From assembly GCA_022844405.1 (NCBI GenBank), contig JALHLV010000011.1:62001-126000 (forward strand): a DNA stretch of 64,000 nucleotides. The letters run 5' to 3'. The number at the start of each line of letters is the position of its first letter. Within the stretch, counting starts at the first letter, position 1. The DNA is from Sphingomonadales bacterium (GTDB lineage Bacteria > Pseudomonadota > Alphaproteobacteria > SMXS01). The position numbers and the translations under genes were made by a program. The notes beneath the pieces are model-generated. The model saw nothing but the letters and a program-made list of their open reading frames with translations. It had not been told where the DNA came from and searched no databases. Below are positions 1,845 to 63,186 of the stretch, one piece after another.

Positions 1845-1918
1845 CCGTGTCCCTGAGCTCGTCGAAGGGCCTTGCACGGACGCGGATGCAAGGCCCTTCG
1901 ACGAGCTCAGGGACACGG
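1845..1918. repeat. Palindromic repeat, family A, copy 1
   Basis: A perfect 32-bp inverted repeat (arms 1845-1876 and 1887-1918) with a 10-nt spacer. The arm core reads cctgagctcgtcgaagggc. It sits between the convergent phosphatase and pirin genes. A second copy with the same 32-10-32 architecture is at 63060-63133. The core resembles dispersed palindromes common in alphaproteobacterial genomes. In RNA either strand would form a very stable hairpin, so it may also act as a 3'-end or terminator-like structure. Confidence 0.9.
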
Positions 1919-4289: not shown

Positions 4290-4350
4290 GACTGGAGCGA
4301 GCGTCGATAAGGTTGGCTCGCCTCCGACAGAAGTTCTTCCTACGGTGATT

Positions 4351-4431
4351 CTGCGAGCGTAGCGAAGCAGCCCAGCCGGGCCGCCACACAGCCATCACCG
4401 GAGAGGCTGGGCTGCTTCGCTACGCTCGCAG
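4351..4431. repeat. Palindromic repeat, family D
   Basis: Perfect 27-bp inverted repeat, arms 4351-4377 and 4405-4431, with a 27-nt spacer. The core is gagcgtagcgaagcagccc. It lies in the 220-bp gap between the DDN-like gene and the AbrB-type gene, at the outer edge of the restriction-modification patch. The rest of 4290-4509 shows no coding signal; in particular, no toxin gene follows the AbrB-type gene. Confidence 0.85.
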
Positions 4432-4509
4432 ACTCACAAAAGAGAAGACCTTGGGGATGTTGACCTCAGCGGCTTCGCCATAAGGCGATCATCAGGAGAA
4501 GACTTCCGT

Positions 4510-9643: not shown

Positions 9644-9701
9644 CGACGGGTCTGGGTCAGGTCAACCGCGCCGCGCGGGCGCAAGAACAGAGGTCGAGCC
9701 G

Positions 9702-10892
<1,191 letters not shown>

Positions 10893-23607: not shown

Positions 23608-23856
23608 TTGTCATCCCGACGAAAGAGCATGTGACGCAATCCAATAAAACGTCGTCATTCCCGCGCACGCGGGAACCCAGATGGTCGTAGAGCGCGTTAG
23701 TGGCCATGGGCTTGGTCCACGAAAAAGTCTTTTCGTTCGATGGAGCGGTTGAACGGTTCTTGCCCTTGCCCCATCTGGGTCCCCGCGTGCGCGGGGATAA
23801 CGAATATTTATTTTGAGATATTGATTTCTTCACACGCTCTTTCGCCGGGATGACAA
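23608..23856. repeat. Palindromic repeat, family B, interrupted by another repeat
   Basis: Outer arms 23608-23634 (begins ttgtcatcccgacgaaag) and 23830-23856 (ends tttcgccgggatgacaa) are 27 nt long and complementary except at 2 positions. Instead of the short spacer seen in the family-B copy at 46132-46216, the arms are 195 nt apart and enclose a second inverted repeat. It lies in the non-coding gap upstream of the TlpA-like gene. Confidence 0.8.
23653..23802. repeat. Inner palindromic repeat nested in a family B element
   Basis: Arms 23653-23684 (cgtcattcccgcgcacgcgg...) and 23771-23802 are complementary over 32 nt with about 4 mismatches, separated by 86 nt. The arms include the 'gggaacccag' block that resembles the inner end of family B arms, so it may be a diverged sister element rather than an unrelated one. 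No ORF is convincing inside. Confidence 0.75.
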
Positions 23857-27296: not shown

Positions 27297-27322
27297 GCAG
27301 CGCAGAGAGAAGGAATTATCCC

Positions 27323-28513
<1,191 letters not shown>

Positions 28514-45409: not shown

Positions 45410-46365
45410 CGGGGTTCGACCTGTTCGTGGGCGCCGACTGGTCCGGCGAGCGCGGCCCCAGGGTGAAGCGGCTGCAAGTGGCGGCCTGCGGCGCCGGGCA
45501 GGGCGCGCCGTCGCTGGTCGCCAATCCGTCAGGCGGGGCGTGGACCCGGCCGGGCTTCGCCGCCTGGCTGCTGGCGCGGGCGAGGGAGCGCCGCGTGCTC
45601 TGTGGCCTCGATTTCTCGTTCTGCTTTCCGTGGGAGGACCGGCAGGCCTATTTCCCGGGTTTCGCCGACGATCCGGCGGACCACGCCGGATTCTGGGCGC
45701 TGGTCGAGGCGCTGTGTGTGGCCGATGACGGCCTGTTCGGCGGCGGTCTCGCCGATGTCGAGCCGCTGCATCACCACTTCCGGCGCGGCGCGGTGACCGG
45801 AGCGTGCTACGCCCGCCGTCTGCGGGTGGTCGAGGCGCTGACCGGAGAGCGCGGGTTGGGCGTGCCCGAGTCCGTCTTCAACCTGGTCGGCGCGCGGCAG
45901 GTGGGCAAGGCGTCGCTGTCGGGCATGCGAATGCTGCGGTGGCTGCGTCGGCATGACGGCGTGGCGGTGTGGCCGTTCGACGAAATCGGCGACACGCGGC
46001 TGGTGCTGGTCGAAGCCTTCCCAACCGCCTTCGTGCGCATGGCCGGCGGCGGGTCCGGGAAGGTGAGGGATGGAGAGCGGCTGAACCGGGTGCTGAAGCA
46101 CTTCAGTTCCCGCCCAATTCTCAAAACATCTTGTCATCCCGGCGAAGGCCGGGACCCAGAACGGGGAAGGGACATTGGCCTACGACCACTGGGTCCCGGC
46201 CTTCGCCGGGATGACAGTGTATTTGAGTTCACCGACGATATGACCGATGCGCTTGTCAGCTCGGCGGCGTTGCGCGCCCTCAGTCCGAATCCCTCGCTGT
46301 GGCATCCGCCGGGCTTATCGGATAGGGTCCGCCGCTTCGAAGGCTGGACGTTTGGAATTACCTGA
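45406..46365 (+). CDS. Unrecognised protein (RNase H-like/DUF429-like?) with an in-frame palindromic insertion
   Basis: 319 residues; I do not recognise the family with confidence. The N-terminus LFVGADWSGERG and later LCGLDFSFCFPWED recall DUF429/RNase H-fold proteins, where an early Asp and the GLD segment matter. GTG at 45406 overlaps the rarA stop (GTGA) and the stop overlaps the rluC-like start, so it is embedded in an operon. Residues about 239-275 (SCHPGEGRDPERG ... PLGPGLRRDD) are encoded by a family B palindromic repeat (46132-46216) and look foreign; the protein resumes with DDMTDALVSSAALRAL. The reading frame is intact through the insertion. Confidence 0.7.
   Translation: MTGFDLFVGADWSGERGPRVKRLQVAACGAGQGAPSLVANPSGGAWTRPGFAAWLLARARERRVLCGLDFSFCFPWEDRQAYFPGFADDPADHAGFWALVEALCVADDGLFGGGLADVEPLHHHFRRGAVTGACYARRLRVVEALTGERGLGVPESVFNLVGARQVGKASLSGMRMLRWLRRHDGVAVWPFDEIGDTRLVLVEAFPTAFVRMAGGGSGKVRDGERLNRVLKHFSSRPILKTSCHPGEGRDPERGRDIGLRPLGPGLRRDDSVFEFTDDMTDALVSSAALRALSPNPSLWHPPGLSDRVRRFEGWTFGIT
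46132..46216. repeat. Palindromic repeat, family B, inside a coding region
   Basis: Perfect 28-bp inverted repeat: arms 46132-46159 (tgtcatcccggcgaaggccg...) and 46189-46216, spacer 29 nt. It is the same family as the elements at 23608-23856 and 63008-63186, but here it lies in frame within a gene. Confidence 0.92.
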
Positions 46366-63007: not shown

Positions 63008-63186
63008 TTGTCATCCCGGCGAAAGCCAGGACCCAGTCCCTGTGCAAGCAAAAAACTATCCGTGTCCCTGAGCTTGTCGAAGGGCGTTGCACCAAGGCTG
63101 ATGCAGGGCCCTTCGACAAGCTCAGGGACACGGTAAAGGTTGGAGACTTGCATCGCTGGGTCCCGGCTTTCGTGCCGGGATGACAA
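63008..63186. repeat. Palindromic repeat, family B, interrupted by family A
   Basis: Arms 63008-63036 (ttgtcatcccggcgaaagcc...) and 63156-63186 are complementary except for one mismatch and a 2-nt insertion in the right arm. Their spacer holds a complete family A palindrome. The element lies between the convergent DUF1489 and panC genes and its right arm touches the panC stop codon. Confidence 0.85.
63060..63133. repeat. Palindromic repeat, family A, copy 2
   Basis: Arms 63060-63091 and 63102-63133, 32 nt each, spacer 10 nt, with about two mismatches. Same 74-bp architecture as copy 1 at 1845-1918, with gcttgtcgaa in place of gctcgtcgaa. It is inserted in the spacer of a family B element. 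Confidence 0.9.

Follow-up and report, generated by a model that had tools for sequence, protein, structure and literature searches.

How did one long palindrome come to lie in the spacer of another? The window analysed here (the whole stretch of 64,000 nucleotides, G000:C11:62001-126000) belongs to a 3.78-Mb genome in 41 contigs (G000), and at 63008-63186 it carries a palindrome of one family, A, enclosed between the two arms of another, B. Six further genomes of the genus were used for comparison, and A copies were counted over four sibling species (G000, G004, G005 and G006).

Anatomy of the nested palindrome

The nested A-in-B palindrome is confirmed to be real and non-random. The composite is present as described, with its B arms, a 119-nt spacer and an A core, and the lone A and the lone B described earlier (1845-1918 and 46132-46216) also match their description. 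The features of the window used below are the following.

63010..63036, + strand: left REP unit (arm) of the B dimer, GTCATCCCGGCGAAAGCCAGGACCCAG; 27-nt consensus, about 28 places in the genome
63037..63155, no strand: spacer of the B dimer, 119 nt, nearly all A unit
63041..63155, + strand: full A unit, with shoulders TGTGCAAG ... CTTGCATCG shared with A units elsewhere
63060..63133, + strand: A palindrome core, two 35-nt arms, 91% complementary
63156..63184, - strand: right REP unit (arm) of the B dimer, with a 2-nt insertion
1845..1918, - strand: A palindrome outside B, within a longer E-type unit; 32-nt perfect arms
46133..46215, + strand: A-free B dimer, 28-nt perfect arms and 29-nt spacer (palindrome 46132-46216)
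23654..23801, + strand: D-type CGTC-REP dimer, 94-nt spacer, inside the palindrome 23608-23856
23608..23856, no strand: outer palindrome around the D dimer, arms TTGTCATCCCGACGAAAGAGCATGTG / CACACGCTCTTTCGCCGGGATGACAA

With its insertion, the right B arm of the composite reads CGTGCC in place of CGCC. The A unit, of about 113 bp, is larger than the palindrome alone, having shoulders of the form GATGCAGG-n12 and n13-TTGCAYC, and it occupies the whole B spacer except for 4-6 nt. An Rfam search of the window returned tRNAs only, all palindromes being unmatched.

The palindrome at 23608-23856 had been counted as a further B element hit in its spacer, so that two of three B elements in the window seemed to be interrupted. 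This count has to be abandoned, because only the outer ~18 nt of its arms are common with B and the inner element is a D dimer: the structure is a D dimer in another palindrome, not A-in-B. The 29-nt spacer of the lone B dimer is also found at the orthologous site in G004 and G005. Elsewhere in the window, a palindrome with 33-nt arms (GTGATTCTGCGAGCGTAGCGAAGCAGCCCAGCC) at 4345-4437 resembles a C-type CGTC-REP dimer, and a 300-bp direct repeat, 99% identical (9699-9998 and 27320-27619, 17.6 kb apart), probably corresponds to duplicated tuf genes.

B arms have the features of CGTC-type REPs

By the features of its arms, family B consists of two CGTC-type REPs standing head to head. In the definition of these REPs, the stem begins with AT and spans 8-9 bp, the loop has 4-5 nt and the tail is CCA (Di Nocera et al. 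2013, PMC3733652). The B arm reads ATCCCGGC-GAAR-GCCGGGA(C)-CCAG, which provides the stem, the loop and the CCA tail. Nearly all copies bear the outer tag C/TGTCAT, in agreement with the CGTC or TGTC/CCTC tag of the class, and head-to-head dimers with recurrent spacer classes dominate among B elements, as they do among CGTC REPs. Ordinary B spacers fall into classes of 13, 24-32, 43-55 and 92-95 nt, and those of the intact B-A-B composites measure 117-119 nt.

Nesting of A in B exceeds chance

G000 contains 34 A palindromes, 33 of them recovered as arm pairs, and B is present in about 28 places. Five A copies lie in B spacers (C2:99823, C10:130580, C11:125009, which is the copy of the window, C16:26811 and C17:38260), and three more are inside C-type or D/B hybrid dimers. 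Random placement in the ~10% of DNA that is intergenic would put 0.08 copies in B spacers (P about 2e-8, by a rough Poisson estimate), and chance nesting was rejected. The siblings G004, G005 and G006 have respectively 14, 9 and 12 A pairs, with 3, 0 and 3 of them in B dimers; two of these sibling composites have damaged arms (L198, L224). Over the four species, 11 of 68 A are nested, and the excess of nesting that followed from the original prediction is thus borne out. The register of A within B is identical in all 11 cases, which come from three species, and it is nearly the same where A occurs in C-type (L062, L085), D-like (L208) or D/B hybrid (L089) dimers.

Ten of the 33 A of G000 belong to E, a species-specific unit of about 220 bp with ten copies in this genome, in which the A core stands between ends like GGTTCATCACGGAATAGCGGG (L064, L067, L071, L072, L077, L080, L081, L086, L087 and the 1845-1918 region of the window). 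E was considered as another A-free target for A and set aside: a search with its left end gave no A-less copy. Searching the literature for the A sequence found nothing.

Orthologous sites and spacer turnover

Of the free A, 32 of 53 have an orthologous A in a sibling, but of the 11 composites not one does (Fisher P = 0.0003); counted by site, the figures are 0/11 and 12/33 (P = 0.02). This suggests that nested A turn over with B, and that free A are older.

At six of the 11 composite sites (L065, L082, L199, L210, L225, L230), a sibling carries an A-free B-type dimer, with a spacer of 13, 28, 31, 44 or 50 nt, and a seventh (L075) has D dimers. For the family, A-free B elements at orthologous positions, on which the idea of A inserting into B depended, therefore exist. 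The window's own site is not among these six: its siblings have no B at all, G003 having just a small CGTC-like hairpin, so that the composite cannot be polarised, nor an exchange of cargo shown, at this place.

At several of the sites where the spacer appears replaced, the ~20 nt next to the dimer differ as well, a pattern to be expected if one permissive intergenic site had been hit more than once. Different dimers might then have been inserted independently, without any swap of cargo, into a small number of permissive gaps between genes; we regard this as somewhat less likely than not. The sites L210/L391, L199/L390 and L225/L105, where the flanks change together with the spacer, agree with such independent insertions, as do the D dimers at the L075 site and a C dimer at a B site of G004. 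Three other sites argue against them: at L065, L082 and L230/L378, one flank or more, or else the B subtype, is conserved up to the arm although the spacer is different. At L230/L378, arms and left flank agree and the spacer alone differs. L082 in G000 looks chimeric: on the left, flank and arm resemble those of the G005 dimer, and on the right they resemble another B subtype, as expected if arms recombine. Empty orthologous sites of B are also present, with flanks too diverged for a target-site duplication to show.

Among 15 other orthologous B sites, the spacer was kept in 11 (inverted in place in one of them) and different in 4. A B dimer spacer lies inverted at the same site in a sibling species (L104 versus L385), and a GIY-YIG-bearing dimer (see below) is apparently inverted in the same manner (L402 versus L397). 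Inverted spacers would be expected from recombination between the inverted arms.

Insertion of A or spread of the composite as a unit

One reading of the composites, which narrows the original proposal to one exact site, is that A is a mobile palindrome inserting site-specifically at the hairpin tip of CGTC-REP dimers, each composite being a separate insertion. The large excess of nesting is in keeping with this, and so are the A-free dimers at six orthologous sites, with a change limited to the spacer at L230/L378, and the presence of A at nearly the same register in C-type, D-like and D/B hybrid dimers. We nevertheless consider it unlikely. Nested A were closer to one another, across species, than random A (P = 0.0002 for the full element and P = 0.006 for the core, on trimmed sequence), although the clustering is modest; in a comparison made before the B-arm letters were trimmed, the nearest neighbour of a nested A was often a nested A of another species. 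Moreover, no remnant of an ordinary B spacer (13, 29, 46 nt etc.) was found around the nested A in the 11 composites. Free A are older, and among them no recent insertion with a clean target was seen; nor did we find an enzyme associated with A.

Taken together, the shared register, the relatedness of nested A and the missing ordinary spacers suggest that one composite lineage was moved or copied into B sites as a unit. These sequence comparisons are better explained if A travels as a class of cargo in B dimers than if it has struck hairpin spacers repeatedly. Thus, of the proposal that A inserts into B with hairpin spacers as preferred targets, the excess of nesting and the A-free orthologous dimers are retained, and repeated targeting is disfavoured on the same three grounds. 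The rival explanations weighed in this study overlap, and the probabilities given to them do not sum to one.

A few B spacers of 47-49 nt (L103:2029-2075, L325, L335) look like the A shoulders minus the core, and are possibly deletion scars of the long palindrome.

RAYT genes are linked to other repeats

The original prediction had pointed to a transposase of the TnpA-REP (RAYT, Y1) type. Four RAYT/TIRYT-like Y1 transposase (Y1_Tnp) genes are indeed present in G000 (L111-L114, at C1:236032, C8:81046, C2:23154 and C33:40345), but their link is to a fourth repeat family and not to A or B: three of the four have TTACGGTGACAGTGCAYTTAA inverted repeats, as does a separate 69-bp palindrome in L112, and no A or B arm was seen beside any of them. 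The marks of RAYT-driven REPINs, i.e. a GTAG tag and a RAYT gene flanked by the same REP, were likewise not found. That RAYT enzymes move A or B, for which the presence of the four genes would speak, is therefore very improbable, and we rejected them as mobilisers. The 2013 survey likewise saw no CGTC REPs at RAYTs (PMC3733652).

A GIY-YIG subfamily lies between REP arms

A search for PF01541 gave 37 matches in the seven genomes. Among them is a subfamily of small, single-domain proteins (94-103 aa), over the PF01541 cut-off and with conserved Y, Y, R, E and N residues; none of the NCBIfam models reaches its cut-off on these proteins, and a search by sequence gave no relative of solved structure. 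Among the intact genes of this subfamily, 19 were examined, and 17 of these have inverted arms scoring above 14 on either side, versus 1 of 13 GIY-YIG genes from outside it (UvrC, YhbQ-like and others; P = 5e-6); none of 400 random intervals of the window exceeded that score. In the remaining two genes (L397, L406), REP-like flanks are recognisable by eye. Most genes of the subfamily are inside a dimer, with one arm on each side; L423 and an Azospirillum gene stand between two whole dimers.

At L358/L422 (G006:C16:24713-25064), the GIY-YIG ORF is exactly the 298-nt spacer of a B dimer. As expected of a MITE, the B arms thus also occur in a full-length form that encloses an enzyme gene, and this is equally true of other arm types. 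Each of six REP types (B, H, D, F, G and C) corresponds to one GIY-YIG clade of its own, the B clade being a single gene. On the GIY-YIG tree, REP type takes the least possible number of changes and every type with several members is monophyletic; some rows of this tree are orthologues, so that independent cases are fewer than genes. Within the seven genomes, the B-type enzyme gene was found in G006 only. The G000 assembly has the H, D, F, G and C types, so that in this genome an action in trans on B by another type would be needed.

The inner ends of the dimers were also compared with those of the gene-bearing elements. A-free D dimers share up to ~14 nt with D-type GIY-YIG elements (closest values 13.5-14.5, versus ~6 for shuffled sequences, in two dimers), and B spacers of 36-55 nt gave a weaker match to H-type GIY-YIG ends (7.3-7.5 versus 5.5). 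The inner ends of A-carrying and of 13-nt B spacers hardly match, if at all, those of the only B-type GIY-YIG element found.

The association extends beyond the genus. Flanking inverted arms, mostly of CGTC type, were present at 10 of 15 relatives in public plasmid and megaplasmid records, and such flanks occur in Azospirillum, Shinella, Rhizobium, Neorhizobium, S. meliloti, Sphingobium, Novosphingobium, N. gonorrhoeae and Aeromonas. On plasmid AZO_p3 of Azospirillum lipoferum 4B (L430), a GIY-YIG gene with CGTC dimers on both sides lies between sufB and sufC, as if it had been inserted into an operon.

GIY-YIG genes are also found beside A (C11:19124 and its orthologues, L394-L396). They are YhbQ-like and have no flanking REP arms, and their proximity to A was set aside for this reason.

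GIY-YIG enzymes elsewhere home into fixed sites, and those described here might be mere passengers, i.e. degenerate homing endonucleases living in REP dimers as A does, the dimers being moved otherwise or amplified by replication slippage and recombination. Both A and the GIY-YIG gene sit in the dimer loop, and a gene located between two whole dimers rather than inside one (L423, Azospirillum) would suit a passenger. We find this rather unlikely, since the strict match between REP type and GIY-YIG clade over six types, and the recurrence of the association over several bacterial classes, are not expected of a passenger. The subfamily is a strong candidate for the dedicated enzyme of CGTC REPs, and for B a better one than RAYT.

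A proposed mechanism

We infer that B and the other REP dimers are mobile. On balance, we favour the view that B is a small mobile or homing cassette composed of REP arms and exchangeable cargo, A being one class of it, and probably a non-autonomous relative of the GIY-YIG-bearing elements. The two hairpin-forming arms of a B dimer would enclose the cargo, and B-A-B would have spread as a unit with its own B arms, not through a long series of A insertions. The sister dimer families, like B, would probably be non-autonomous kin of elements having a GIY-YIG gene between the same arms. The nuclease may recognise its own REP hairpin and nick or cut it; the break would then be repaired from another copy via the REP arms, and this repair would either insert a dimer at a new place or swap the cargo of an existing one. 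Nuclease action followed by repair would account for the fixed register, for the relatedness of nested A units and for the spacer differences.

For the wider proposal, we see an even chance that a dedicated GIY-YIG subfamily co-evolves with CGTC REP dimers and mobilises them in Alphaproteobacteria, Neisseria and beyond, as a counterpart of RAYT, with B, C, D and the A composites as non-autonomous or homing derivatives. CGTC REPs are widespread in Alphaproteobacteria and were previously without a known enzyme, and with a matching clade for every REP type it can be tested directly where these repeats come from and how they spread. If the proposal is true, each of the two large classes of bacterial REPs independently arose from its own enzyme family, the two families being unrelated to each other, and the nested palindrome would be explained by cargo exchange, not by chance or hairpin targeting. 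For specialists, the surprising part is the association of CGTC REPs with GIY-YIG clades; among the search lists of open-licence literature, we found no paper joining GIY-YIG with REPs or dRS3, and those retrieved for GIY-YIG with RAYT dealt, by their titles and abstracts, mostly with fungal mitogenomes.

Comparison with known systems

The arms of B, C, D and the other types share with the CGTC REPs of PMC3733652 the CGTC or TGTC-AT start, the 8-9 bp stem, the 4-5 nt loop and the CCA(G) tail, as well as the head-to-head arrangement, the several spacer classes and the abundance in Alphaproteobacteria. That class includes the dRS3 repeats of Neisseria and the RPE repeats of Rickettsia. It was said to seem devoid of a dedicated transposase, after tyrosine and other transposases had been tested; unlike here, GIY-YIG genes were not tested, the term being absent from that paper, and a spacer class made of a second long palindrome such as A was not seen in the parts of it consulted.

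Regular nesting of palindromes is known from A. variabilis, H. neapolitanus and T. roseum, in which REP dimers lie in other palindromes (PMC3733652). There the REP element lies inside the other palindrome, and for two of the three species no outer palindrome without it was found. The arrangement is the opposite here, the REP dimer being the outer partner and A-free dimers being common. Other elements also sit in REPs in the case of the insertion sequences that target them (Tobes and Pareja 2006, PMC1525189); A differs from these in being a non-coding palindromic unit of 113 bp with a fixed register, for which spread as a unit fits better.

The proteins of the GIY-YIG subfamily have the VYI...nGTLYxGVT, R, E (REK) and NP residues of small free-standing GIY-YIG proteins (YhbQ/UPF0213-like, SLX1-type) and of homing endonucleases. 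They form a distinct clade of 95-100 aa, apart from the four other GIY-YIG genes of these genomes on the tree, and their genes are within REP dimers.

A parallel in organisation is seen in REPtrons and TIRtrons, in which RAYT genes lie between GTAG REPs or between unrelated TIRs; the RAYTs of G000 look like the TIR type. As in these systems, a small enzyme gene lies here between the repeats that it supposedly moves, and REP types are matched to enzyme clades. What differs is the enzyme, a GIY-YIG nuclease that is unrelated to RAYT and lacks the HUH/Y1 motif, and the class of repeats, here CGTC REPs.
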